From: Bryoerythrophyllum caledonicum
Taxonomy: Eukaryota > Streptophyta > Bryopsida > Pottiales > Pottiaceae
DNA: 64,000 nucleotides
Assembly (NCBI GenBank): GCA_963971425.1
Contig: OZ020519.1
Span: forward strand, 574,028 to 638,027
Direction: 5' to 3'
How positions within the stretch are numbered: the first letter of the stretch is position 1; each line of letters starts with the position of its first letter. This document shows positions 24,181 to 57,950 of this stretch, in pieces. The notes under the pieces were generated by a model that was not told where the DNA came from, ran no database searches, and worked only from the letters and a program-made list of their open reading frames with translations. Both the position numbers and the translations under genes were made by a program.

Positions 24181-24924
24181 TTTTTTCATGAAAATGTTCA
24201 AAATCAAACAAGATTTAGCTCTTATATGAAAATGACTCTTTTTTACCTTAATTTTCACTTAATTTGTTTATCTCAAAATTTTTAACTAGAATTTTACATT
24301 GAATTACCGGAATATGCCTTTGCCTCTATCCTCCTACTCCCTTTCCCCCCAAGGTACGTGCATTGATCCCTAGAGGGCCAAGTGTACCTATGGAGTACAT
24401 AAATTTTCACTTGACCAAGTGTATCCATGGAAATCGACTTGGGATTTGCCCAATGGTGTGGCTCAGGGCTCTCAACTTGATCCTTTGGACTTCACACTAA
24501 AAAAACCAAACTCCACAAATGACATATTTTGGTGTTTATTCTCCTCCAAAAACTTGACCCCTTGGCAAAGTTTGGACTTTGATGGAATTCGGTCCTTGAG
24601 TTCTATGTGAATGGCCCCTTACTATCAATGAAAAATCATATTATTATGCATCCCTTCTAAATATACACACTGATGTTTCTTTTTAGACATATTCCAACTT
24701 ATCTTATTTGTGTGAGTGACAAATGTGAATTCCATGTAATGTCAATCTAACATTCCTACAAAACACTCTCTTTTTAAATACATTCACTTAAGATTCCAAT
24801 TTTTTTGCAGTGGAAATTGTTCCCACAGCTGCACCTTTCTTTTTTTCTGATGAAACATTGAAACGCTGATATCTTCAAGAAATATTTACTTGTGACAGGT
24901 TGTTTGCATAAAGGACAATGTCAG
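24181..24924. other. Intergenic DNA, nothing recognised
   Basis: AT-rich sequence between the dispersed-repeat fragment and the old LINE fragment. No protein-like frame and no repeat structure were noticed. Confidence 0.5.
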
Positions 24925-25770
24925 GTAAAGATTTGTTGTTGCAATATGTGAATTCTATGAATTGGATGGTGATGTTTGGGTTGGGTGCTTATGGCGGGGG
25001 GAGTCGTTGTATGGAATACCGCGGATGCATAGAATATCTAGTATAAATCTTGCGTTGCATTGACATCTTTGTGTTCCACAAGTACACGGGAGTAGCCATG
25101 GTGGGACCGTATTTTCAAATGGGTTATCGTGAAAGATACCAACATTCATATAACTAAGACAACCAGTTTTACCGTGGGATATAAGTAGTTTCCTAATTTC
25201 CCATATTGCTTTGTTGTGTCTCTGACTATTAGTGAGTGTATGTGATGTTGTTGGCATTTGAGTAATATATGTAACTAGGTGTTTGGTTCTGTGGAGCTGC
25301 AGATGGGCCATGTGATGGAGGGGTATCTTGTAGGTCCAAAGAAGAGTTGTTTTCTAGCGTTGCCCATGAATTGGCCCATTTTGAACTTAATAATGCATGT
25401 TTTTTGTGCGTATGAAATAAGAAGATTTTTCTAGAAGTCATTGGAGAGCTCATTGTCTATGTCTTAATTGCTTGTCCATTTGTCTAAGTTCCGAAACTTT
25501 TTGGCTAACTTTGTTAGATTGTTATGGAGATCGTGTTTTTTGAGGTACTTGCCTAGGAACCGTATAGGGCTTTTATCCGGGGTGTCTTCCATGGATGGCC
25601 ATTCATCTCTTTGATAGTAATATGGTGTTGTGTAGGCATGTTCATGTGTGTTTGGCTTCCCTAGGTTCCTTGTCTCTGCCTATTTTGGCTAAATTGTCCG
25701 CTTCTTCATTTCCATCTGTCGGAACCTCCTTTTTTTCCTTGGAAGTCACTAAGAGTAATGAGTGCTTAGG
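24925..25770 (-). pseudogene. Old internal LINE ORF2 fragment (RNase H end to C-terminal cysteine region)
   Basis: On the minus strand this piece encodes, with several frameshifts and stops, the segment corresponding to about residues 2055-2310 of the large LINE's ORF2. Recognisable blocks are NEEADNLAK (RNase H end), RHNKAIWEIRKLLIS, NTVPPWLLPCTC and TQRCQCNAR. It stops short of the ORF2 C-terminus and lacks the 3' tail, so it is an internal relic rather than a fresh insertion. Divergence from the intact copy is visibly greater than for the copy at 42695-47440. Confidence 0.8.
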
Positions 25771-30699: not shown

Positions 30700-32286
30700 A
30701 TGTCTCAACAACAAACTACTGCCACTTCCTCCAAACGCCTGTTTGTTGAAGTGCTTGAAGGTATTCCGAACCCTCTAAATGTGATGCAAAATGCCTTGGT
30801 TATTACAAGCTCCACCCAGAAAAAGGTGAAGGCAACAAGTTTGCCTTCCACCAAATACTGGCTAGGCTTCCAAACAATGAATATCATTGCAAAGAAGAAT
30901 GGGGAAGAAAAAATACCTTTGGTTACCATAGAAGAGTTGGTAAAATGTGGGTTAAATGAAAAGGAAGCATGTGAGAGTTTTGAGGCAATACCGTCATTTC
31001 CTTTTGTCATCCAAGAGGAATGGCCCTCTAAAAGGCATGATGGAAAGGTAGGAAATCATTTCAATCTCACCCAACTTCCAAGTGAAGTTGAGGTGGATGA
31101 AGACGGCTTTGCCTTGGACTACCAAATTTCCATTCATTTTGACTTGGCGAATCAAGTATGGTCAAAAAATGTGGTACTAGACATGGTGAAAACACGACTG
31201 CAAGAAATGGAGATACCTACAGGAACACGCATTGGTGAACCAATAGCCGTGTTTTGTCACCACCAGTCCGACAATTGGACTGGTGTGGTGAAACTGCACC
31301 TAAAAAACCCGGTTATCGATGCGAAAGGCTTATTGGGAGGGCTAAGGCCGTTCATCCTCATTTTGAATGAAGGAATCCCACACCAAGGAAAAGTATGCAA
31401 AGCATACGACTCCTTGGCCTTCTCACATCTCTTATCGGTGAAAATATCAAGCCCAAGTCTTGTTAATGTAGATCCATACCACTTACATGCAGAGATTGTA
31501 AAAGATGGTTTTGCAAGGAGTTATGATTTCGAGGTAACGGGAGTAGAAAAGAAAAGCTCTTCAGATTTTGCATGGGTCAAAACTCCCTCCCCGGAACAAG
31601 CTGCTAAAATAAAAGACTATAAAGTCTCATTTTGTAATGAGATTTTTATGCCTGTTTTTGCAACCCGGAAAATGGATGAGGATGAGATCGCAAAAAAGAA
31701 CTGTCTAATTCTCATTGCAAAAAACCTTAACAAAACAAAAAACGAAAAAGAATTGGTAGAAGGAATAAAATCCATAATTGGGGAAGAAAATGTAGTTGAC
31801 ACATACTTCAAACTGGAATACGGACGACATGTAGGGACTTGCAATATTGAATGTTTAAATGCGGCCGTCTATAAAAAATTTGTTAAACAAAGTAAAAAAT
31901 TACACGGAAAATACATTATGTTTACCCCTCACCCCAAGAGTCTAGACGGCAGCAACAAACCGAGCGCAGAAGAACTAACGAGACTAGGTTTTTCGGATGT
32001 AAACGCGGCCGTAGCTAACGCGATGATTGCCATGGAGAACGAACCAAATAAAGGTCATGGAGTTACCCTACAACAACTACGCAAAGAAATGAAGACCATG
32101 AAAGGAGAAATCGTAGACGAAGCAAGGCAATATGCGGACATGGTACAGGCGAACACGGTCAAATCCCTAAGGGGAGAAATGTCAACCCTTCGATCCCAAC
32201 TCATTGCAACCATCATGGCGGCGGAAACTCAAGCATCGGAACGGGAGCAAAGAGTCATTGAGAACAAGATGGACATGTCAAACTAA
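30700..32286 (+). CDS. LINE ORF1 protein, RNA-binding type, 528 aa
   Basis: This is probably the nucleic-acid chaperone that coats LINE RNA. From the ATG at 30700 the sequence becomes clearly protein-like (MSQQQTTATSSKRLFVEVLEG). Residues about 335-410 fit an RRM-like fold: LILIAKNLNKTKNEKELV as the first strand and helix, a central VGTCNIEC strand and a final KYIMFTPH strand. The last 80 or so residues are heptad-like and charged (LQQLRKEMKTMKGEIVDEAR), consistent with a coiled coil used for oligomerisation. The first 330 residues have no recognised domain. The start was chosen by composition; the frame stays open upstream, so a longer protein beginning at 27532 (1584 aa) cannot be excluded. 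It stops at 32284-32286, 284 bp before the first ATG of ORF2. Confidence 0.75.
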   Translation: MSQQQTTATSSKRLFVEVLEGIPNPLNVMQNALVITSSTQKKVKATSLPSTKYWLGFQTMNIIAKKNGEEKIPLVTIEELVKCGLNEKEACESFEAIPSFPFVIQEEWPSKRHDGKVGNHFNLTQLPSEVEVDEDGFALDYQISIHFDLANQVWSKNVVLDMVKTRLQEMEIPTGTRIGEPIAVFCHHQSDNWTGVVKLHLKNPVIDAKGLLGGLRPFILILNEGIPHQGKVCKAYDSLAFSHLLSVKISSPSLVNVDPYHLHAEIVKDGFARSYDFEVTGVEKKSSSDFAWVKTPSPEQAAKIKDYKVSFCNEIFMPVFATRKMDEDEIAKKNCLILIAKNLNKTKNEKELVEGIKSIIGEENVVDTYFKLEYGRHVGTCNIECLNAAVYKKFVKQSKKLHGKYIMFTPHPKSLDGSNKPSAEELTRLGFSDVNAAVANAMIAMENEPNKGHGVTLQQLRKEMKTMKGEIVDEARQYADMVQANTVKSLRGEMSTLRSQLIATIMAAETQASEREQRVIENKMDMSN

Positions 32287-32420
32287 TAGCGTCAAACAAC
32301 GCTACAACCAAAAATAATATAGTATATATATATACTAAAATACAAAGCCAAAAAATATATAAAAATATAAATAGGAAAAAAGATAAAAATATCAAAATAT
32401 ATCTATATACTATCATATTT

Positions 32421-32553
<133 letters not shown>

Positions 32554-32570
32554 AAAAGATAAAGCCCCCA

Positions 32571-35500
32571 ATGACATCAAAACCAACAGCAACAACAACA
32601 ACAATAACAACAACAACATCAACAATAATAAACCCCCAAAGACACCAACAACAACAAAAACCCCAACAACTCCAACCACCCAAACAACCCCTACAAAACC
32701 TAAAACCCCAACAACATCACTACCCTACCACAATCTACCTCTGTAAAATACTAATACTTCTCAGCGGTGACATTGAAAAAAACCCAGGCCCCATGCCAAA
32801 CATAATAAAAACACACCCCGCAGCTCATAAAAAACGCGCAAAAATGTACTTCATCCCTAGTACTATAAAACTACACCCCGAGTATCAACACCTTGCTAAC
32901 ACATTTTCACCACTACTAAAGAACACACATGAACTACATAACTCACATAACATGACCTACCCGCATATAGCACAATTCATTGAACAAAAAACTACACATC
33001 CCCCATCACATATCCTATATGCTTTAATTATTACAGTACACCCCTCTCTAGAAGAGTGCAACCAAATATTAGCCCTACAAAATACCAATACCACAAATTG
33101 GACCAATACTCTCCTTAACAACTTAATCACTCTACATAACCCACCTGAAAGACATATTAATACGAAACACCCGTATACAAGTTTCCTAGCAGAAAATCAA
33201 AATATTATCCAACATAGAGACTCCATACACAAAGAAATATATGATTTCGTACACAGTCAAACCTCACCCCCCACACAAAACACTATCCAACTACACTTCC
33301 CATTCCTGCCACATGAACTAACTAAAGAAATAACGAGATGCTTTGAGCCAATCCTAGAATACACATTCCCATCCCCACCAACCCCATATATACCACCTGT
33401 AAATCATAACGAAAACACTAGAGACATCAATACATACATCTTAACATGGAACGCTGCATCCCTAAACACTGCTCTCCCATGCCTCCACAATCTATCTACC
33501 CACACCAACACACCACCCGCCATAATTGCTATACAAGAAACTAAATTAACCGCTACTAAATCCACAAAATACATCCAAAAAACATTCCCCGACTACAAAC
33601 TTATATTTAATAACACTCATGCCCTTACAAGATGCATCCAACAACGTATGCCATATACACCAACGAGAGGAGGCCTCCTTATGCTCATACACCAATCATA
33701 TGCCTTCCCTGGGAATATCACTAAAATTCCTACTCCGGCTAATATATCACCATACCTCCAAATTATTAAAATTACTAACCGACCCCTCCAACCATGGCTC
33801 ATTCTTCACCTATACATGCCATCGCACATAGAAGACTCTAGGCTTATTCCGGAAATCCAAAATTCCATCACTTCACAAATTAATACGCACACTAACCATA
33901 CAATAATACTTTGTGGAGACTTTAACCAAGATATTGCCCTTATTGGACGACAAAACGGAGAGACCTTCACCACCCCACGTGATATAGACTATCAATGGCG
34001 AAATTACACAGATAATCTAGAATTATATCTGATCCCAACCGATACACAATACTCTCGTCAAGGAGGACTTAATTACACACACACTAGCCTAATTGATGGA
34101 TTTTACATTAAAACACCTAACCATACCCAATACACATCTATCACCAATACCTCAACCAACTTAAACTCGGACCACTTCCCGATCCAACTAAATATACCTC
34201 ATAACATCCTTATAAGTAGACCCCCCACCAAAACAAACTCAAATGATATCAAAATACTAAACCCCATCCCAAAAGAAAACCTTGACAACTTTAATACAAT
34301 ATTCTTTGAAAAAAACTCACTACAGATAGACTCCCTTACAGAAATTCTATCCAACCACCAACACCTAACACACATACAATGGCAAGAAGCCTGCACCTCT
34401 CTTGACAAAATTATTAATGAAATTTCTACTACATTAGAAAAGACATGCAAAGCACCTCCGACCCCACAACTCACACCTAGAACCTCGAATCAAGGGGGGT
34501 ATCTCCCGAGAAAACTAGCCAAAAAGTGGAAACAACATCTTGTTACATACCACAATATTCGGAAAACAATTTACATCGCTAAAAATAATCAAAATTGGCG
34601 AACCCACCCCATACTCTCTGAACTACAAAACCTTCGCCATCCCCAAATCCCACAAGTACCACCGCTCAACAACCCTCACGAAGATTGGCTAAAAGACATT
34701 GCAGTCATTGCAAAAACCGCCAATAAACAAGCTCGGAAAATTACTACAAAATATACAAGAGAATGTATCAGAAAAGCCATTTCTAAGTATCGTCAGCTAT
34801 ACGAATCTAGCCCAAAAAAGATTAATAGAAAAGTTTTTAAAAACAACACAAACTTACCATTAGATTGCATTCTAGATCAAAACAATAATATTCTAACCAG
34901 CCCAAATGACATTGCAAACGAAATACATTTTCAACAATCCATAAACAATAGGCCATCCACCCCCTCATGTCACTTCCAACCACAACATACACCAACATGC
35001 ACATGCGGGGTTAGACAATACCCGTGGCATGATCTTGACAGATTCACCATTGATAAAAGAGGAGAACCCACGACTCCTCTCCACACATATTATAACAGAG
35101 ACACATATAACATGTGCCTAAAAAATCTGGGAACCAACAAAGCTCCCGGACCGGACCATATACCTAACTCAATTCTAAAAAACATGCCTCCGAGATTCCA
35201 TGACCTTCTATCATTATTTTTCCTCCATTGTTACAAACAAAAAGCAATTCCTGCATCCTGGAAAACAAGTTTAACAATCTTATTATACAAAAAAGGCAAC
35301 CCAACCGAGCTACCTAATCACCGACCTATTGCCTTAGCCAACGCCATTTACAAACTGTACACTAGCACATTAACATCAATACTATCGGCCTACGGGGAAA
35401 AACACCAAATACTACATGAAAGCCAAGAAGGGTTTAGAGCTGAAAGAAGTACCACACAGCAAATCCAAACTATCATCGCCGCTCTTGAGGATGCAAAATT

Positions 35501-38500
35501 CACTAATAAAGACATTTACATACTCTACATTGATTTCAAAAACGCTTTCGGTTCCATTGACCATCCTCGCTTGCTAACCATTATGAGCGATCTTGGATAC
35601 CCGTGCGACGCGGTCACACTGGTTGGCAATATATACTCCCAATCTACCACTACATACGTTGGAGAATTCTTTGGTAAAACACGCCCTATCCCTATCCAAC
35701 GAGGGACCATCCAAGGCGATACATTGAGTCCATACCTCTTCATTATTTTTCTGGAACCCCTACTGAGATGGCTTCAAAGAGGGAATAATGGCTACACATT
35801 TGGCACCTCAAAAGTTACCATAAACTCGGCCGCATATGCTGACGATCTTGCGGCCATCTCCGGACGCCTCAAATCACTCAAAACTCAATTGGACAAAATA
35901 GACAAATTCTGTCTATGGTCCGGGATGGAACTTGGGGTCCAAAAGTGTGCCATAACCGGATGTCCAAACAAATCTAAAACAAACCCGACCGCCTTCAAAG
36001 CCCTTATTCAAGCTAACAATATCCACTATCGTAACCAACCAATCCCGGTTCTAAACCAAAACCAACCCTATATATACCTTGGAATAAACCTAGTCCCATC
36101 TTTAAAATGGAAAATTCAAATTCATGCTACTACTACAAAACTTATTAAACAATGCAAGGAACTTATACTTTGTCCGGCCACATTGCAACAAAAAATAAAA
36201 ATGATTGATACCGTCATACGACCGGGTATCTCATACAGTTTCTATGCGGTCCCTTATTCCATGCCCGCCATAAATAAACTCGATAAGAAAATCATAGCCA
36301 TACAAAAGAAAGTATGCGGGCTCCCCAATTGTACGCCTAATATCATAACACAACTTCCCCATGAACTATTCGGATTAGAAGCTTTCTCCCTCAAAAATGC
36401 CTACTTACGTTGCATTGGAGAACAACTCCAGAATGCACTTAACGATAAAGGACGACTAGGACTAATTTACAGTGGACTCCTTCGGCACATCCTTGCCATT
36501 TATGGAGGAGCACAATACCTCCAAAGACTTAAAAAATCTGATTGTCTTCGGTCCCCCATTACCCGCACACTTTTTCTACTTAAAACAGAAGGTCAAATAT
36601 TTCTAAAAAGCACACTAGAAGATTTCCTACTAGACCCCGCACCACTTGAACAAAATTGGGCAAATGAAATTCATAACCTCCCTAGACTTGACCGACAATT
36701 ATCCGACAAACTCCTACAAAAACTCTTCTCTGCAAACATTACTGATCTAAAACAAATTACACTACCAAATGGAACACACCTTATGGACGACAAGAGCTAC
36801 AAAACACTCTATGGTACCCCTCATAAATTAATAAAAAGTGCACTAAACATTGCCAAACAATTATTTTGTCACCCTCCATGTCTCCCTACATGCCCCAACC
36901 CTTGCGCCAATCACGCCCCACCGTACACACTTAAAGACTCATATATCATCAATCACAATGACATCCACCCCAACACCAACCCCCCACTAATTCCCCCAAA
37001 CCCACCACACTCACGACCATATGCCCCTCCACCACATATATTAAAAAACCCTTCCATACACCCAATAAATAACATAACCGCGCACAGACATAATAAACAC
37101 ATTGACTCCAACAAAATAAGTAAACAATATACGACGTACCTATGCCACTGGTCCCACAATAACAACACCTACGCCAAATGGCTCCCACAAAGAAATCTTT
37201 TCCCTTGGCACAACCCAAATACTTCCTTACATAACACCGAAATCCTCACACAATACTACCTTAGAACTCAAAACAGTCATTACCTAAATATCATACAAAT
37301 ACACCACCCCCAAGCACAACTTCGAGATAGAAGATTTGTCACACCACCCCTTATTATCCCCCTTCTTAACATCTTTACAACTGAATGCAACCCAGAAACG
37401 GACATCCGAGCACAAACAAATACAATCAAAATACAACAAGACAATGCCCACATATACGAAGGTAATGGTAGACATCTAATAACCATACCACTCGCTAGAC
37501 TACAATGGCTGTGGAACCAATATCACAACGCACTACTAACCCCCATTAACATCGAACCAATACCCCAAACATTTGAAACCGAAATTGTTTGGCTATACCA
37601 AAGATACAACTACCGAACACCCAAAAATGACCCCCTCAAAAATGCACACTACATATTACCTGATCCTATCTTAGACTACCTTATTACATCCCTGAATATC
37701 ACACATTCATACTTCTCATCCCCCGTTACATGCTCCACAAAAATCTCAAAATTTTACTCTCCATTCAAACGCGATAAGATTTTTGGGTCTCTTGGAAAAG
37801 CCTTTGATTATAAGTGGAGTGGAATAGGCCTCGCACACCCTCACAACGAAGAAGAAACACAACAAGCAATACATTGGGCACGCCTAGCGGCAAATAATGA
37901 CCCCAACCACAATATCACCATCATTATCACTCCCGACACTCATTGGTACCACAACCCTAACCCACAATTAGGCCCATTCCCGGACTCCCACATCATAGTA
38001 CTATTTGAAGCCGATTCCATGACTTACAAAGAACCCACTATACCACCGCAAATACAAACACCCCGCCTTGAACCAGCAACCCTACGTATCCTATGTATAC
38101 ACCAACAAACTCGTGAAATAGGTAATCTAGAAATCTTCAATCATCTCACTTTGATAGCAAAAAATCTAAACATTAACAAGGTATACACCGCAATTGCCCC
38201 CCCCACGCCCATATCAACCCGTGTAAACCGCAACAAAAAATGGTCTAAAACCCCCCACACAAACATCTCCACGTCACCAATTACCGAACTAAGCCTCCCC
38301 CTCTCTTACTACCAAATTAATATAGACCTTAAATTTGACCCCAACTTTAGCTACTACACTGACGGCTCTTTCAAAGAACCAACCGAAGTAAGCCCGGGAC
38401 ATTGGCACCGGGAGAAAGCCGGTTATGGGATATACAATTCTACCAAACAAATTAAATTAGGTAAAAGACTACATGGACTCCAGAATATTCTAAGAGCCGA

Positions 38501-39818
38501 AATGATGGCTATACACAAAACCCTCAAAATAATCACCACCCAATACCCAAACGAACCGGCTCACATTTTTACAGATTGCATAAATGTATTATATCTCCTT
38601 AATACACATATTAAACACCCTACTTTACACAATAGTCATCCGGATAAAACTATCCTTCAATCTATGGTTGAAATGCTCCAAAACCGTACACAGATTACTA
38701 CACTCCATAAAGTCCGTGCTCATGCTAATATCGACGGCAATGAACAAGCCGACAAACTAGCAAAGGAAGGGAGAGAAAAAACCCACAAGAATGCCGAACA
38801 CCCATACGAACACGCTCATGCTACCCCATACTACTTTCATAGACATGAATGGCCCTCTATGGGTGAAACTCCCGATAAAGGCCCCGTACGATTCTTGGAC
38901 AAATACCTCAACAAACATGATCTTCTAAATAACTTAGAAAAACTTACAGAAAACTTCCCCAATATTGATAAATGGACTGGCAACCCAAATATTCATAATG
39001 TACTATCCAATAATTTTTGGAAAAACCCCACTATAACGGATCCACAAATCACATGCCTAATCAAATTCCGCACCGGACAATACATGGGCAATGCCCGCAA
39101 ACAACTCTTCTTTGGAATAGAAAGATTTCCTACAATAACATGTCCAATTTGCAACACCACAGACCCGGACACATGGCTACATGTCCTACTCAAGTGCCAA
39201 AACCCCCATATACATTCACTAATTGTTAAAAGACATAACAAAGCCGTATGGGCTATTCGTAAACTACTTATATCATCAACTAAATCCCGTTGCTTCGTTC
39301 TCATGAATGCCGGAACCTTTAATGACAATCCACAAGAAAATACGGTCCCCCCTTGGCTATTACCATGCACATGTTGCACTCAAAGATGCCATTGTAATGC
39401 AAGATTCAAACCGGACCTACTATGTGTTAGAGGACTTTCATACAAAGACCCCCCTCCAAACCACATAGATCCTAATCTCACTATTCAGTTTATTGAATTC
39501 ACATATTGCAATGATAGATTCTCTCCGGACACTATTGCTAACAAAGCAAACAAGTACCAACCACTACTTGATGATATTCAAGCACTAGGATGGAAAGTAG
39601 ACCCCCTCATTGTAATCACCGCGGGTGCCAGAGCCACCACCTTCATTCCCTCAATGACAACCCTTGAAGAAACATTTAAAATCCCCATCACTTCAATCAA
39701 AACCACCTTCTCAAATATTAACACTATTGCAATTCAACATGCTATGTCAATACTCCTGCATAAACGGAAACTTGAAAACAACCAACCCCTTCCTGATACA
39801 TCAAACCTCCCTCCATAA
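32571..39818 (+). CDS. LINE ORF2 polyprotein: 2A-like / APE endonuclease / RT / PCIF1-like / RNase H / CCHC, 2415 aa
   Basis: The enzyme of target-primed reverse transcription. Residues 1-55 are T/Q/P-rich. A 2A-like motif ends at residue 74 (LLSGDIEKNPGP). The APE-type endonuclease spans about 290-540 with N294, E323, D450, N452, D534 and H535 in WNAASL, QETKL, CGDFNQD and NSDHFPI. The reverse transcriptase spans about 850-1150, with KAPGPDHIP near 857, D988 in IDFKNAFGSIDH and YADD at 1089-1092. A segment at about 1690-1800 resembles the PCIF1 methyltransferase core but has AHPH (1755-1758) at the catalytic position. RNase H has D1931, E1977, D2002, H2051 and D2061. A CCHC knuckle follows (C2191, C2194, H2204, C2209), then a cysteine cluster CTCCTQRCHC. 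It is much longer than usual I/ingi ORF2 proteins (roughly 1000-1600 aa). Codons are strongly A- and C-rich on this strand. Confidence 0.92.
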   Translation: MTSKPTATTTTITTTTSTIINPQRHQQQQKPQQLQPPKQPLQNLKPQQHHYPTTIYLCKILILLSGDIEKNPGPMPNIIKTHPAAHKKRAKMYFIPSTIKLHPEYQHLANTFSPLLKNTHELHNSHNMTYPHIAQFIEQKTTHPPSHILYALIITVHPSLEECNQILALQNTNTTNWTNTLLNNLITLHNPPERHINTKHPYTSFLAENQNIIQHRDSIHKEIYDFVHSQTSPPTQNTIQLHFPFLPHELTKEITRCFEPILEYTFPSPPTPYIPPVNHNENTRDINTYILTWNAASLNTALPCLHNLSTHTNTPPAIIAIQETKLTATKSTKYIQKTFPDYKLIFNNTHALTRCIQQRMPYTPTRGGLLMLIHQSYAFPGNITKIPTPANISPYLQIIKITNRPLQPWLILHLYMPSHIEDSRLIPEIQNSITSQINTHTNHTIILCGDFNQDIALIGRQNGETFTTPRDIDYQWRNYTDNLELYLIPTDTQYSRQGGLNYTHTSLIDGFYIKTPNHTQYTSITNTSTNLNSDHFPIQLNIPHNILISRPPTKTNSNDIKILNPIPKENLDNFNTIFFEKNSLQIDSLTEILSNHQHLTHIQWQEACTSLDKIINEISTTLEKTCKAPPTPQLTPRTSNQGGYLPRKLAKKWKQHLVTYHNIRKTIYIAKNNQNWRTHPILSELQNLRHPQIPQVPPLNNPHEDWLKDIAVIAKTANKQARKITTKYTRECIRKAISKYRQLYESSPKKINRKVFKNNTNLPLDCILDQNNNILTSPNDIANEIHFQQSINNRPSTPSCHFQPQHTPTCTCGVRQYPWHDLDRFTIDKRGEPTTPLHTYYNRDTYNMCLKNLGTNKAPGPDHIPNSILKNMPPRFHDLLSLFFLHCYKQKAIPASWKTSLTILLYKKGNPTELPNHRPIALANAIYKLYTSTLTSILSAYGEKHQILHESQEGFRAERSTTQQIQTIIAALEDAKFTNKDIYILYIDFKNAFGSIDHPRLLTIMSDLGYPCDAVTLVGNIYSQSTTTYVGEFFGKTRPIPIQRGTIQGDTLSPYLFIIFLEPLLRWLQRGNNGYTFGTSKVTINSAAYADDLAAISGRLKSLKTQLDKIDKFCLWSGMELGVQKCAITGCPNKSKTNPTAFKALIQANNIHYRNQPIPVLNQNQPYIYLGINLVPSLKWKIQIHATTTKLIKQCKELILCPATLQQKIKMIDTVIRPGISYSFYAVPYSMPAINKLDKKIIAIQKKVCGLPNCTPNIITQLPHELFGLEAFSLKNAYLRCIGEQLQNALNDKGRLGLIYSGLLRHILAIYGGAQYLQRLKKSDCLRSPITRTLFLLKTEGQIFLKSTLEDFLLDPAPLEQNWANEIHNLPRLDRQLSDKLLQKLFSANITDLKQITLPNGTHLMDDKSYKTLYGTPHKLIKSALNIAKQLFCHPPCLPTCPNPCANHAPPYTLKDSYIINHNDIHPNTNPPLIPPNPPHSRPYAPPPHILKNPSIHPINNITAHRHNKHIDSNKISKQYTTYLCHWSHNNNTYAKWLPQRNLFPWHNPNTSLHNTEILTQYYLRTQNSHYLNIIQIHHPQAQLRDRRFVTPPLIIPLLNIFTTECNPETDIRAQTNTIKIQQDNAHIYEGNGRHLITIPLARLQWLWNQYHNALLTPINIEPIPQTFETEIVWLYQRYNYRTPKNDPLKNAHYILPDPILDYLITSLNITHSYFSSPVTCSTKISKFYSPFKRDKIFGSLGKAFDYKWSGIGLAHPHNEEETQQAIHWARLAANNDPNHNITIIITPDTHWYHNPNPQLGPFPDSHIIVLFEADSMTYKEPTIPPQIQTPRLEPATLRILCIHQQTREIGNLEIFNHLTLIAKNLNINKVYTAIAPPTPISTRVNRNKKWSKTPHTNISTSPITELSLPLSYYQINIDLKFDPNFSYYTDGSFKEPTEVSPGHWHREKAGYGIYNSTKQIKLGKRLHGLQNILRAEMMAIHKTLKIITTQYPNEPAHIFTDCINVLYLLNTHIKHPTLHNSHPDKTILQSMVEMLQNRTQITTLHKVRAHANIDGNEQADKLAKEGREKTHKNAEHPYEHAHATPYYFHRHEWPSMGETPDKGPVRFLDKYLNKHDLLNNLEKLTENFPNIDKWTGNPNIHNVLSNNFWKNPTITDPQITCLIKFRTGQYMGNARKQLFFGIERFPTITCPICNTTDPDTWLHVLLKCQNPHIHSLIVKRHNKAVWAIRKLLISSTKSRCFVLMNAGTFNDNPQENTVPPWLLPCTCCTQRCHCNARFKPDLLCVRGLSYKDPPPNHIDPNLTIQFIEFTYCNDRFSPDTIANKANKYQPLLDDIQALGWKVDPLIVITAGARATTFIPSMTTLEETFKIPITSIKTTFSNINTIAIQHAMSILLHKRKLENNQPLPDTSNLPP
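32736..32792 (+). promoter_or_regulatory. 2A-like ribosome-skipping site in ORF2
   Basis: These codons read YLCKILILLSGDIEKNPGP. The C-terminal part fits the 2A consensus D-(V/I)-E-x-N-P-G-P exactly (D67 to P74), preceded by the leucine-rich stretch usual for 2A peptides. In known 2A peptides the glycyl-prolyl bond is not made at NPG/P and translation continues, giving two proteins. Here that would release residues 1-73 and start the enzyme part at P74. 2A-like sequences at this position are known from non-LTR retrotransposons of trypanosomes and several invertebrates. Activity in this element is inferred. Confidence 0.8.
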
Positions 39819-42694: not shown

Positions 42695-45600
42695 GAAGAA
42701 GAAGAAGAACGTTGGTCTCCGAAGGAGGCCGGCGTGAATAAAGTGTCTGTTCGTTCCACTACTAAGACCATGCCCACAGGACAAGGAATTAGTGAGCTGG
42801 AACTACTTCCCTCTCTGGAGGGTAGACACTATGTAACAAGAAACCAAAGAACCACAAGTCAACCAACCAACCAACGAATCACAAACCAAGTAACTAACCA
42901 ACGAACTAACCACAAACCAGGCAAGTAGTCAAAAACCTTAAAACCAACTAATCATGAAAATCAAGGCGGGGGGAGAATTTAGGGGGGGTCCTGTGTATCG
43001 GCGAGGGCTTGGTTGTTTTCAATTTTGCGTTTATGTAGAAGAATGGACATGGCATGTTGGATAGCTATGGTGTTAATGTTTTTAAAGGATGTTTTAATTG
43101 TTTCAATGGGTATCTTGAAGGTGTCTTCTAGAGTTTTCATAGATGGGATAAAGGTGGTGGCCCGAGCGCCGGATGTGATTACCATAAGGGGGTCGACATT
43201 CCATCCGAGGGCGATGATGTCGTCAATAAGGGGTTGGTATTTGTCTATTTTATTTTGGATTGTTTCCGGGGAAAATCTATCGTTGCACTATGTGAATTCA
43301 ATGAATTGAATGGTGTAGTCTTGGTTGACGTTATCCGGTGGTGGGTCATTGTATGGTAAACCTTTGACACAAAGGATGTCCGGTTTGAGCCTAGCGTTGC
43401 AATGACATCTTTGGGTCGTACATGAGCATGGGAGTAGCCACGGGGGGACCGTATTTTCTTGTGGATTGTTATTGAAAGCGCCGGCGTTCATTAGTATAAA
43501 ACATCTCGATTTATTGTAGGAGGTGATTAGTTTTCGGACTTCCCATACCGCTTTGTTATGTCTTTTAACAATTAGGGAGTGTATGTGGTGGTTTTGGCAT
43601 TTGAGTAGAACATGTAGCCATGTGTCGGGGTCCGTTGAGGGGCATATGGGGCATGTTATGGATGGAAATCTTTTTATTCCAAAGAAGAGTTGTTTACGGG
43701 TGTTTCCCATGTGTTGACCGGTATGGAATTTGATAAGGCATGTTATTTGTGAATTGGTGATGATGGGGTTTTTCCAAAAATTTGTAGAGAGTTCATTGTC
43801 TATGTCATTGTTGTTAGTCCACTTTTCTATGTTAGGAAAGTTGTCTGTGATTGTGTCAAGATTGTTATGTAGGTCTTGTTTTTTGAGATATCTGCTCAGG
43901 AATCTGACCGGACCTTTATCGGGGGTGTCTTCTTTGGAGGGCCAATCTTCTTTTTGGAAATAGTAAGGGGTGGCATGGGCGTGTTCATGTGGGTCTTTGG
44001 CATTTTTATGTGATTTTTCTCTTCCTTCTTTTGCAAGTTTATCCGCTTGTTCATTGCCATCAATATTAGCATGGGCTCGGACTTTGTGGAGGGTTGTGAT
44101 TTGTTCTCTTTTTAGTATCATTTGGACCATTGATTCTAATATGATTCGGTTGGGGTGACTATTATGGAGGGTAGGATGTGTTATTTGGGTGTTTAATAAA
44201 TATAGTGCGTTAATGCAATCTATAAATATGTGTATCGGTTCATTGTTGTATTTTGTTGAGACGATTTCTAATGTTTTGTGGATGGCCATTAGTTTTGCTC
44301 TGAGGATATTTTGCAGTCCATGTAGTCTTTTGGCTAGTTTGATTTCTTTCGTAGCGTTGTATATTCCATAACCGGCTTTTTCTCTGCGCCAAGATCCCGG
44401 GCTAATTTGTTCTGGTGGTTTAAAGGAGCCATCAGTATAGTAGCTAAATTTTGTAATTAAATTTAGGTGGGGTGTCAGTTTGATACTCCGGGAGGGATGG
44501 GGGTGTTCAGGTGTAGTTTAATGTATTGTTATTGTAGTGTAGTTTTGACCATTTTTTGCTTATGTTGACGGGTGTTTCCATTGGCGTTGGTGGGGCCAAT
44601 TTTGTGAGTATTCGGTGTATGTTTAGAGTCTTTGCTATGGAGGAGAGTTCTTCTAGTTGTTCTTGTGTGCCTAGAGTATGATTTTGGTGGTGGATGCATA
44701 TTATTTGTAGAGTGGATGATTCAATTCTGGGTTTTTTTAGATCTAGTGGGATGATGGGTTCTTCATATGTTATTGAATCTGCTTCGAATATTGTGATGAT
44801 GTGTGTATCGGGAAAGGGGCCTGAGTGTGGATTATGATTTTGGTACCAGTTTTTGTCTGGGGTTATGATTAGGGTGGAGGTGTGGTTTGGGTCATGTTTG
44901 GCCGCGAGTCGGGCCCAATGTAGAGCTTGTTGTGTTTCTTCTTCATTGTGTGGGTGTGCCATATCATTACCTATCCATTTGTGGTCAAAGGCTTTGCCTA
45001 GTGATCCGAATATTTTATCTCATTCAAAGGGGGAGTAAAAGTTGTTGAGTTTGGTGGGGCATGTGACGGGGGAGGAGAAATATGAGTGTTGGATGTTGAA
45101 TGTGGAGATTAGTGAATTAAGTATAGGTATGGGTAGTGTATATTGTGTAAGTTTAAGGGGGTTATTTTTTGGTAATCTATATTTGTATCTTTGGTATAGC
45201 CAAATGACTTCGGTTTCGAACGGTTGGGTTGTTGGTTCAATGTTTGTAGGGGTTTGTAGTTTAGTATTGTATTGGTTCCACAACCATGTGAGCCTAGTGA
45301 TTGGGATGGTAAAAAGATGCCTTCCATCTTCTTCGTATAAGTGTGCTTGGTCTTTGTCAATTTTTATTGTGTTAGATGAGGTACGAGTGTCTTTTTCGGG
45401 GTTGCATTCCATTGTGTAGATGTTTAGTAGGGGGATTATTGTGGGTGGGGTGACGGACCTTGTGTCTTGGGGTTGGTTTTGTGGGTGGTGAACTTGGATA
45501 ATTTCGGTGTAGAATTTGTGTTGAGTTCTTTGATAATATTGTGTCAATTTATTTGTGTTATGTGAAATGGTGTTTTGGTTGTGTCTTGGGAAACGTTTCT

Positions 45601-47440
45601 TTGGGGGAGCCATTTGTTGTAAGTGTGGTTATTGTGAGTCCATTGGCATAGATATATAGTGTAATTATTTTCTATTTGGTTTTTATCTATTTTTTCCTTG
45701 TATTCGTGGTGTATGATGTTGTTAATGGGATAGGTGGTGGGGTTTTTGAGGATGTGGTTTGGGGGGTGCGGGTGGTGTGGGTGGGAGTGGGGAGGGTGGA
45801 TCGATTGTGTGGTGATATTTCTTGGAGTGATGTCATTGTTTATAGTGATGAATGGGTCTCTAATTTTATGAGAGTATGTATGTGTATTGGTATGTGTATT
45901 GGGTAGGGGGGGATATATTGGGTGACAAAAGAATTGTCGTGCAATTTTTAGGGCACTTTTAATAAGTTTTGATTGAGTGAAGTGGTAGGTTTTAAATTCT
46001 TCATTGTTCATGATGTGTGTTCCGTTGGGTAGGGAGATTTGTTTTAGTTCGTAGATATTTTTTGTTAGGAGTTTTTGTAATAACTTTTGAGATAATTGTG
46101 TGTTGAGTGTATTATGGTTTTGTGTTTCAAGAGTCCAAGCTTTTTCTAGTGTTGTTGGTTCTGTAAGAAAGTTGGGGAGAGTGCTTTTTAGGTGGACTTT
46201 TGCTACGTGTTTTAGTAAGAAGAAGGTACGTGTTATTGGTGATCTTGTACAATTTGTCTTTTTTATTCTAGGTATGTTTTGTGCCCCCCCATATTGTGCG
46301 AGGATGTGATGTGTTAGGCCCTTGTATATCTTTCCAAGTCTGCCACTGTCATTTAGAGCGTTCTGGAGTTGTTCACCTATGCATCTAAGGTATGCGTTTT
46401 TTAGTGAGAAGGCTTCTAGTCCAAAGAGGTTGTGTGGAAGTTGGTAATTATGTTAGACATACATTTTGGCATGCTGCATACGGTTTTTTGTGTGGTAGTT
46501 ATTTTTTGGTCCAATTTTTTGATGGCGGGCATTGAGTATGGTACCGCGTAGAAGTTGTATGCCACGCCCGGTCTTAAAACTGTGTCGATCATTTTTATTT
46601 TTTGCTTCATAGTGGCCGGACAACCTACTAGTTCTTTGCATTGTTTGATTAATTTTGTGGTGGTGGCATGAATTTGGGTTTTCCATTTTAGGGAGGGGAC
46701 GAGACTTATTCGTAGATATGTGTATGGTTCGTTTTGGTGTAGAACGGGTATTTGTTGGTTTCGGTAATTTATGTTAGAGGTTTGTATTAGGGCTTTCAAT
46801 GGGGTGGGGTTTGTTTTTGATTTATTTGGGCATCCAGTGATGGCACATTTTGGGACCCCTACATCCATACCTGTCCATTTGCAGTACCTGTCTATTTTGT
46901 TAATTTGTGTTTTTATGGCGTTGATTTTGTTGGTTATTCCCGCAAGGTCGTCCGCGTATGCCGTGGAGTTGATGGTGGTTTGTGATGTCCCAAATGTGTA
47001 TCCATTGTTGCCTCTATCTAGCCATCTAAGTAGTGGTTCTAGGAATATAATAAATAAATATGGGCTTAGGGTATCTCCTTGTATTGTTCCCCTTTGGATG
47101 GCTATGGGTTTAGTTTTACCAAAGTGTTCTCCTATGTAAGAAGTTGAGGATTCGGAGTATATATTTCCCACTAGTGCGGTGGCATCTTTGGGGTATCCAA
47201 AGGTCCGTCATTATGGCTAAAAGTCTAGTGTGGTCAATAGAGCCGAAGGCATTTTTAAAGCCGACATACAGTATAAATATGTCTTGGTTTATAAATCGTG
47301 CATCTTCTAATGCGGCTATTATTGTTTGGATTTGTCTAGCGGTGCTTCTTTCTGCGCGGAATCCTTCTTGACTATCATGCAATATTTTATGTTTTTCGCC
47401 ATATGATGAGAGTATTGATGTGAATGTGCTCGTAAATAGT
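42695..47440 (-). mobile_element. 5'-truncated, decayed LINE copy with exact 12-bp TSD
   Basis: The 12-mer ccctagtagtaa at 42683-42694 and 47441-47452 flanks this reverse-oriented element. Its 3' tail (42695-42978 region) has the (TTC)n end and the hairpin-bearing tail. The coding part begins inside the reverse transcriptase, so the 5' region, ORF1, 2A site, endonuclease and first RT motifs are missing. This is the usual outcome of incomplete target-primed reverse transcription. Confidence 0.9.
42979..47400 (-). pseudogene. LINE ORF2 pseudogene: RT, PCIF1-like, RNase H and C-terminal regions
   Basis: Reading from 47400 down, the frame pieces are 47382-47116 and 47171-46416 (RT with IQRGTIQGDTLSPYLF and YADDLAGI), 46011-45544, 45613-45020, 44962-44507, 44289-43288 (RNase H and cysteine region) and 43185-42979. 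Frame changes separate several of these. In-frame stops occur within the PCIF1-like block (after FYSPFE, at 45020) and just after FIEFT (43285-43287). The PCIF1-like block again has AHPHNEEE where PCIF1 enzymes have NPPF, so that change is a family trait and not damage in a single copy. The catalytic TDGS start of RNase H is poorly preserved here. The protein is not functional. Confidence 0.88.
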
Positions 47441-56159: not shown

Positions 56160-57950
56160 AGACAATCATACCTTTCTAAAAAGCCCTCTAATTTTTTTTA
56201 GAGAACTTCAAAGAAGTTGTCAACATCTACACATATGTAGAGGCCATTTCTAAGGTTTTAAAAAGGAACCTGTGAAGAAGTTGCCAACATTGGCACCTTT
56301 CTAGAGGGCCTCTTCAATTTTATTAATGAAACCTCCAAAAGTAGAACCGACATTGGCGCCCCTTAAAAAGAGCAGCCTTTTATGTACATTAGGGGAACCT
56401 CCAAAAGAGCAGCCGACATTGGCGCCTCTCAAGAGAACCCTTAAATGTATATTAATAAAACCTCCAAAAGGATTGCGGACATCTTCCCTCCCCAAGAAGA
56501 GTATATCAAGTGAACCTCCAACATGGCAGCCGACATCGGCGCCCTTCATGAGAATCCCTTCAATATATATTAAAGGAACCCTTAAAAGGGGTGTTGACAT
56601 CAGCGCTATTTTAAAGGGCCTCGTAAATGTATTATAAGGGAACCAAAAATAGGGTAATCGACACTGGCGCCCCTCTAGAAGACCTTTTAAAAGTATGTTA
56701 ATGGAACCTCCAAAAAGGCAGCCAACAAAGGCGCCCTTCTGAAGGACCCTTTGAATGTATACTAAGGGAACCTCTAAAAGAGCAGCCGACATCGGCTACC
56801 CCTAAAATGAGCAACCACGCTTAAGAAATTTTGAAGATATTTTTGAAATGGTATTACATTTTATCATTGGGCATAATACGGATGAGTTATCAATGGATGA
56901 AGTTCTGAATTTCATAACTTCATCCGCAAATAACTCATTTGTACAATGTCCAATGATAAAGTGTAATATCATTTTGAAAATATCTTCAAATTTTTTTAAG
57001 CGTGGTTGCACACTTTAGGGGTAGCCGATGTCAGCTGCCCTTTTCGAGGTTCCCTTTATATACATTGAAGGGGTCTTCTAGAAGGGTGTCGATGACCGCT
57101 ACCTTTTTAGAGGTTTCCATGATATGCATTAAAGGGATTGTTTATGAAGTCGTTGATGTTGGCTGACCTATTAGAGATTCCCTTAATATGCAATTAAAAG
57201 GTCTTCGTCATGGGCGCTAATGTCGACTGCTCTTTATGAGGTTTTTTAAATATATATTTAAGGGGATCTCTTGAGGGGCACCGATGTTGTCTGCCTTTTT
57301 GGGAGTTTGCTTGATACAAACAGGAGGGGTCCTCTAAAGAGGTGCCATTGATGGTAGCTCTTTTGAAGGTTTGCTTCAAACATTTGGAGGGGGGGCTTTT
57401 GAAAGGGTGTCAATGTTGGCATATCTTGTGGAGGTTTGAAGGGAACTATAGTATAATTTTATTGTCGGTATCATTTTTAGAAATATTTTTTAAACATAAA
57501 AAAAGCTCTCTTAAGGGGTATCAACGTTGGCACCTCTTTTGAAGGTTCCGTTTGTAAACGTTGAAGGGCCATCTAAAGAGGTACCGATGTCAAACTCCCT
57601 TTCTAAGGTTTCATTAATAAACATTATGAATCATGTAATGGGGTTTTGATATCAGCGCCCATTGTAGAGGTTCTGCTTTAAATATTGGACGGGTGCTTTG
57701 GAGCAGTATCGATGTCAGCATCTTTTATGTAGATTCCTTTTTAAACAGTTTAGGGCCCTCTTTAGGATTGCCCATGTCGCCATCCGCTTTGAAGGTTTCA
57801 TTTTTAAATATTGGAGGGATCTTCTAGAGGAATGTTGATGTGAGCACCATTTTGAAAGTTGGCTTTTTAAATATACGAAGGGCCCTCAAGAGAAGTACCA
57901 ATATTAAAGACTTCTTTATAAGATTTCTTCTACAATTAAAGAAGTCTATT
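56160..57950. repeat. Foldback-like hairpin of about 64-bp tandem subrepeats
   Basis: The left arm (about 56160-56904) is an array of units starting aacctccaaaag or similar, at about 56328, 56396, 56460, 56513, 56577, 56641, 56705 and 56769, mostly 64 bp apart. The right arm (about 56916-57950) carries the same units in reverse complement (gaggttccc.. at 57046, 57110, 57172, 57238, 57300, 57365). The arms meet at a near-palindromic centre at 56910 (gatgaagtt..aacttcatc). Long inverted repeats made of tandem subrepeats are the structure of foldback transposons. Neither a transposase nor a target duplication was found. Confidence 0.7.

Follow-up and report, generated by a model that had tools for sequence, protein, structure and literature searches.

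A probable natural case of StopGo (2A) recoding at the start of the enzyme ORF of a Dualen-like LINE family in the moss Bryoerythrophyllum caledonicum

Introduction

APE-type non-LTR retrotransposons that begin with a 2A peptide include L1Tc and Ingi of trypanosomes, and Odon and colleagues reportedly listed in 2013 the CR1, L2, Rex1 and Crack elements of animals, as well as Ingi, as carriers of 2A.

For non-LTR elements, the available parts of two papers place 2A in trypanosomes and animals (PMC12846837, PMC4981915). StopGo functions in plant cells (same parts of PMC4981915 and PMC12846837), and a sea urchin NLR 2A is active in those of Nicotiana (PMC4981915, part available); a survey of virus genomes reports, in its available part, no evidence of natural StopGo use by plant viruses (PMC12846837, 2026). 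Among the papers listed, our search of the open-licence literature showed no 2A case in a plant, algal, moss or fern LINE.

The locus described here lies in a window (the whole stretch of DNA that was analysed) of 64,000 nt from the moss B. caledonicum (contig OZ020519.1, positions 574,028 to 638,027), and raises the question of whether a land-plant LINE uses StopGo naturally. From the comparison of its copies and relatives, we consider it very probable that the octapeptide heading the enzyme ORF serves a Dualen-like LINE family of this moss as a natural site of StopGo (2A) recoding. Ribosome skipping at NPG/P, and how often it would occur, are inferred here.

Results

Anatomy of the element

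The window contains one long copy of the element and two partial ones:

30700..32286, + strand: ORF1, 528 aa; its stop TAA is followed by TAG; homologues in other copies by tblastn
32262..32768, + strand: leader in the ORF2 frame, with the overlap of the ORF1 end (-1 frame), an (AAC)n poly-Asn tract and a T/Q/P-rich part from ATG 32571
32287..32304, + strand: predicted RNA hairpin 1, UAGCGU/ACGCUA, immediately 3' of the ORF1 stop
32320..32337, + strand: predicted RNA hairpin 2, UAGUAUA/UAUACUA, 6-15 nt past the first hairpin in four sequences
32571..39818, + strand: ORF2, 2415 aa, counted from the first ATG and including the stop codon
32736..32768, + strand: the 11 codons preceding the 2A core; they encode YLCKILILLSG and include the upstream motif of LLLLSG type
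32769..32792, + strand: StopGo/2A core DIEKNPGP, ORF2 residues 67-74; predicted separation NPG/P, before a conserved Met
42988..47439, - strand: second copy, 5'-truncated, from ORF2 residue 929 on
24914..25740, - strand: third related element, a short 3' fragment

ORF2 comprises the leader, the 2A, an APE domain (about residues 291-538), RT (910-1173), a PCIF1-like domain (1666-1788), RNase H (1927-2068) and a C-terminal CCHC with a restriction-like endonuclease signature (about 2191-2315). In the Pfam scan RT (RVT_1, 1.7e-28), the PCIF1-like domain and RNase H lay above the cut-offs; the two APE matches were weak (1.7e-5 and 4.9e-4, both under the cut-offs), and relatives of ORF2 found by protein search carry precomputed APE domains. 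ORF1 gave no Pfam match at E 0.01. Since the second copy is 5'-truncated, it cannot show a 2A. The element adjoins a cellulose synthase gene (- strand) in the same window, on a contig 31.7 Mb long, and is therefore not on a stray contaminant contig. Among the best 120 of 3398 matches, the joined open segments of that gene share 93% identity with a CesA of Physcomitrium patens, 86% with Ceratodon and 79% with Marchantia paleacea, which places the host among the mosses, close to Physcomitrium. Elsewhere in the window, positions 56265-57421 hold repeated and inverted-repeat units with a 163-aa open frame on the - strand.

The PCIF1-like domain (mRNA cap m6Am methyltransferase) lies at 37566-37934 (+ strand) inside ORF2. 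It reads AHPH at a site where the majority of nine aligned relatives read ANPEY, and which we take to be that of the PCIF1 motif NPPF, so that the domain may bind rather than methylate. It gave 2614 first-look candidates in the genome, of which 150 were scored and listed; all 150 exceeded the cut-off. Thirty-three of them have a 3087-codon open frame in common and equal scores, which we read as a very young LINE burst, with L047-L049 as examples. The available part of PMC5890265 does not mention PCIF1.

Classification and relatives

The protein search with ORF2 returned 58 matches, including proteins of Haematococcus and Pleodorina; domains of the RVT_1, RNase H, APE and PCIF1 types are present in many of them. 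A profile search returned 22 further matches; as to land plants, those few of the 58 + 22 that are named come from green algae, animals and one Ipomoea. In an RT tree of 74 rows, the moss elements fell within a 31-row clade (support 99/95) together with Haematococcus P0021 and Pleodorina P0027, and the sole angiosperm protein of the tree, P0054 (Ipomoea), fell in another clade. With phmmer against the PDB, ORF2 matched R2 (1.7e-31) ahead of LINE-1 (5.3e-21). Its C-terminus had no PDB match at E 10, and residues C2191, C2194, H2204, C2209, P2281, D2282 and E2309 are invariant across nine aligned proteins. In common with green-algal Dualen/RandI, the moss element appears to have an APE, matched weakly, and a C-terminal CCHC with PD-E signature, besides an RNase H, and the nearest named relatives of its ORF2 are in Haematococcus and Pleodorina. 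Dualen elements possess a cysteine protease domain; the moss element differs from them in carrying a 2A and in that the Pfam domain scan of ORF2 found no such protease. The element thus looks Dualen-like rather than a usual plant L1, on a tree composed without reference Dualen sequences and without named L1, CR1, L2, Rex1 or Ingi ones. An earlier sequence-only reading had called it a plant LINE ORF2, of which the LINE assignment holds and the lineage is to be revised in this sense.

A loose 2A pattern matched eight of the 80 relatives. Three of these, P0180, P0182 and P0195 (60, 61 and 58% identical to moss ORF2 where aligned), carry CGDIEPNPGPMPN, CGDIEPNPGPMPD and SGDIETNPGPMPN, respectively; in them 490-895 residues precede the core, which is DIEPNPGP or DIETNPGP and runs on into MPN or MPD. 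Another close relative, P0179 (56%), begins downstream of the 2A site. Further off within the Dualen-like clade are P0004 (GVEKNPGP) and P0025 (DIHPNPGP). Most members of that clade show no 2A, and some of the proteins may be N-terminally incomplete. The 2A label stands on four rows of the 31-row clade, two of them moss, and requires five changes over the 74 rows, so that 2A was either gained more than once or is old and often lost.

As separate observations, the LINE proteins P0188, P0191 and P0199 carry the 2A-like GIESNPGP, DVHRNPGP and DVHQNPGP (P0188 and P0191 lie outside the Dualen-like clade and P0199 is absent from the tree), and the Dualen-like LINE proteins P0024 and P0025 have an extra C-5 cytosine methyltransferase domain, positioned in P0025 after the PCIF1-like domain.

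The 2A motif and its genome-wide count

ORF2 residues 61-77 read LILLSG-DIEKNPGP-MPN, an exact StopGo core behind an LLLLSG-type motif. The octapeptide had already been recognized as an exact 2A consensus from sequence only, and this was borne out (residues 67-74, encoded at 32769-32792); the range proposed with it, 32736-32792, starts at residue 56 (Y) and takes in most of the hydrophobic block besides the octapeptide. In the available part of PMC12846837, the viral StopGo core is defined as (D/G/C/N)(V/I)ExNPGP, and one permissive class of upstream motif is L-rich and ends in A/S/C-G; the core and the LILLSG of the window fit these definitions. The moss peptides resemble the viral L-rich class in the core, the LLLLSG-type hexapeptide, D at p12 and G at p11, and differ from viral StopGo at p15, which is T or K in the moss (P or T in P0180, P0182 and P0195). 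Among 66 unique copies, p11 is G in 64, and p10 is C in 25, S in 22, G in 18 and Y in one; the resulting G-G ending of some upstream motifs is absent from the A/S/C list in the same part of that paper (PMC12846837).

A degenerate 2A pattern matched the window only once, and 0/100 shuffles gave any match. Over the whole genome (437 Mb, 894 contigs) the 2A pattern, in which the second codon could be F, L, I, M or V, matched at 1720 sites (882 + 838), and the reversed control pattern at two (2 + 0). By-eye counting of the 100 sites listed gave Ile at the second 2A position in 99 and Val in one.

Conservation in copies chosen without the motif

Copies were also chosen by their endonuclease domain (3913 first-look candidates, 146 scored, the first 72 by rank used, window element included). 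The exact core was found in 65/72, i.e. in 64 and in L029, whose next codon is V and not M. The seven exceptions, with stop-to-stop frames of 539-1047 codons, comprise G18S in L068, L072 and L085, G18C in L083, P17L in L071, a frameshift in L024 and the unanchored L084. The exact core is present in each of the 21 copies whose stop-to-stop frame reaches 2341 codons or more; the comparison of 0/21 cores missing in these with 7/51 in the others is only suggestive. Stop-to-stop length is a poor measure of whole ORF2. For 13 of the 21 the length of the leader is known: 12 have at least 2341 open codons past the 2A (2341 being the window copy's own figure) and L037 has 2108. All of those 12 keep the exact core, and intact members with NPGP lost or replaced, the outcome that would speak against a functional 2A, were not seen.

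A downstream-peptide pattern, YFIP(N/S)TIK(L/F), matched 1679 genomic sites (control 0). Just upstream of the first 100 of these, the exact core was present in 76 (70 in frame, six at a frameshifted distance) and 24 were without it. Thirty YFIP loci were listed, 25 of them exact in frame, three substituted (DIETKPGP, DIETNLGL and DIETNLGP) and two frameshifted; the list L091-L120, though itself drawn up with the YFIP pattern, contains the sites of L001-L007, first found by motif. Met stands right past the 2A in 28/30 of the loci, the remaining two being the frameshifted ones; this count uses an anchor further downstream, whereas the core and selection anchors demand M or V past the site.

Selection on the peptide

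In the 66 unique copies (101/102 loci anchored), pN/pS was 0.98 in the leader (codons 30 to 20 before the Met), 0.41 in the 11 upstream codons, 0.10 in the core and 0.34 in the 15 codons after it; without the free position p15, the core value fell to 0.055. The pS was similar in all four stretches (0.52-0.64), and the 42-copy subset chosen by endonuclease gave 0.88, 0.31, 0.11 and 0.35 in the same order. P at p17 is kept in 63/66 copies, G at p18 in 59/66 and P at p19 in 64/66, despite the use of six, seven and six codons at these positions. In three loci (L094, L105 and L119) the anchor took a decayed upstream duplicate (DMETNPRP twice, DMETNPRS once), so that the core's conservation is understated and the contrast weakened, and the demand for M or V makes the downstream stretch look more conserved. 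Since this profile places the onset and the sharpest point of the constraint at the 2A, its protein sequence appears to be kept by selection. On this basis the genome-wide motif search that the sequence-only reading had proposed, run here in this genome, supports a selected 2A at the ORF2 start.

Leader, linker and the ORF1-ORF2 junction

The 73-aa leader described earlier proved to be a count from the first ATG only. In the window element (L009) the ORF2 frame is open upstream of ATG 32571 through the (AAC)n tract and then 25 nt of the ORF1 end, so that it runs back into the 3' end of ORF1 in the -1 frame. Thirteen different copies have 2341 codons or more from stop to stop and an ORF1 end that could be seen (L012, L017, L019, L020 and L037, two loci each, counted once); the same relation, with overlapping open frames, holds in 11 of them. 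Two copies complete past the 2A, L014 and L029, depart from it, and among all ORF1 matches reaching the ORF1 end, decayed ones included, the three offsets occur 18, 8 and 6 times; a strict frame rule between ORF1 and ORF2 is ruled out by these copies and the mixed offsets. In the window and seven loci (L043, with its ORF1 end not placeable, was left out) the distance from the ORF1 stop to the 2A holds one frame and linker indels are multiples of three, which is supporting evidence only; the sample covers about four subfamilies, with the window and L046 near-identical. We saw by eye no canonical -1 slippery heptamer (X XXY YYZ) at the ORF1 end in the aligned junctions, so the -1 shift route stays weak.

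Past the ORF1 stop, hairpin prediction gave z values over the whole stretch of -4.9 (window), -2.1 (L039), -3.5 (L042) and -4.5 (L044), four sequences from different subfamilies, the stem being weakest and differently paired in L039. From these predicted structures the hairpins may have a function in ORF1-ORF2 coupling. The linkers of 12 sequences are 440-1283 nt long, with an (AAC)n tract of variable length, and hold at most two AUGs before the post-2A Met (one in frame in the window type; one out of frame at nt 12 in five). The Met right behind the 2A is the first AUG past the ORF1 stop in L042 and L044. From the ORF1 stop to the 2A, the ORF2 frame of L037, L042, L044 and L029 lacks any Met codon, which leaves these copies without the option of an ordinary AUG start ahead of the 2A.

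Other subfamilies are built differently. The analysed stretch of the young L047-L049 showed no ORF1 homologue; in L047 a run of 739 stop-free codons, in frame with ORF2, leads up to the 2A (0 stops, against a mean of 36 and a minimum of 20 in 500 shuffles, and 22-40 in the other five frames). In L047-L049 an extra upstream 2A-like duplicate reads GGDINTRPN, and the terminal 2A is exact. In L109, ORF1 is fused in frame to the 2A via poly-Gln, and ORF2 is broken further on. Whether the layout is ORF1 and linker, a single long leader or a fused ORF1, the 2A stands at the last joint before the enzyme. The leaders of L050 and L047-L049 also repeat, in tandem, their own end together with the start of ORF2; the repeats carry decayed 2A copies (DMETNPRP, GGDINTRPN), as if duplication had lengthened the 5' end.

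Alternative readings of the site

The alternative that survives best is that ORF2 starts at the Met codon ATG 32793 through reinitiation or scanning after ORF1, the 2A being little translated and irrelevant to ORF2 production. The Met found behind the site in every YFIP locus listed other than the two frameshifted ones would suit it, as would the few earlier AUGs in the linkers, the first-AUG position of this Met in L042 and L044, and the hairpins predicted 3' of the ORF1 stop; the shortage of AUGs comes in part, however, from the low G and T content of the linker. We regard this alternative as unlikely, given that it explains neither the conservation of the octapeptide beside a freely changing leader (0.10 against 0.98) nor the 739-codon stop-free in-frame leader of one subfamily.

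The sequence-only reading had also suggested that the hydrophobic block before the core might act as a signal-like segment, in which case block and 2A together would send the unskipped ORF2 product to the ER. The block (ILILL beside the 2A) is indeed present, and the sea urchin NLR leaders provide a precedent (PMC4981915, part available). It is not N-terminal, however, since 54 residues precede it in the window (from the first Met) and hundreds of codons in other copies, and its run of leucines already counts among the known upstream motifs of 2A, in the LLLLSG-like class (PMC12846837, part available); we therefore find an ER signal very improbable and read the block as part of the 2A.

That the motif is a functionless accident of chance or shared ancestry, frozen in one recent burst, would accord with the many young copies (including the 33 of 150 listed PCIF1 matches with a common frame), but has next to no probability when distinct copies differ at about half of their synonymous sites, the leader diverged freely and the core amino acids did not (pN/pS far from 1), and the 2A is kept in relatives that are about 60% identical; the genome count (1720 vs 2) and pN/pS both reject a chance match or one frozen copy.

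Discussion

What the data show directly is the motif with its position, its spread over many copies and subfamilies, selection acting on the peptide, and the occurrence of the motif in related elements. With StopGo as the preferred reading, we suggest that a ribosome translating the leader in the ORF2 frame would stall once the nascent chain ...LILLSGDIEKNPG fills the exit tunnel, that the leader would be released after the glycine, and that translation would resume at the proline codon and continue Pro-Met-Pro-Asn. The ORF2 protein would thereby be freed of a low-complexity leader, or of an ORF1-leader fusion. Entry into the leader frame may occur by reinitiation after ORF1, by a -1 shift or by a non-AUG start; copies without a leader Met would have to rely on a shift, on a non-AUG start or on a fused ORF, and the conserved Met past the 2A may serve as a second start.

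A more elaborate version, in which StopGo acts together with another non-canonical event at the ORF1 stop, either a -1 shift or a stop-coupled restart helped by the hairpins, is possible, and we put it forward as tentative and rather doubtful. If this two-step reading is true, ribosomes in the leader frame and those that reinitiate would make near-identical N-termini (P-M-P-N and M-P-N), giving a two-route expression of a LINE enzyme.

Comparison with known systems shows a known peptide at a known LINE place; what is new is the land plant, the Dualen-like lineage and the unusual joining to ORF1. As in the APE-type elements with 2A, D(V/I)ExNPGP stands just before the endonuclease-RT protein and is predicted to free the enzyme from its leader. 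The moss family differs from the trypanosome and animal elements in its host, in an RT that lies among Dualen-like elements and in that many copies keep an ORF1, with the 2A behind a long low-complexity linker in the -1 frame. As in SART1/LINE-1 coupling, a second ORF follows a first, with RNA structure past the ORF1 stop in SART1; the moss element differs in having no UAAUG overlap and a 440-1283 nt linker that is nearly AUG-free and ends in the 2A (PMC5972666, part available). The sea urchin NLR leaders likewise have a hydrophobic stretch ending in 2A; the moss block, in contrast, is not at the N-terminus, and sits in a retroelement (PMC4981915, part available).

Finally, StopGo is already a working tool in plants, without evidence of its use by plant viruses in the available part of PMC12846837. 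A high-copy, selected 2A in a moss would show that ribosomes of the plant lineage have met a StopGo peptide naturally, and, if the two-step reading is true, this would be the first natural StopGo use in land plants, as far as is known. The finding would extend 2A-bearing LINEs to the Dualen-like lineage and would supply native plant variants of the peptide. Since subfamilies of differing layout keep the same 2A, the moss genome offers a natural series on why LINEs use StopGo.
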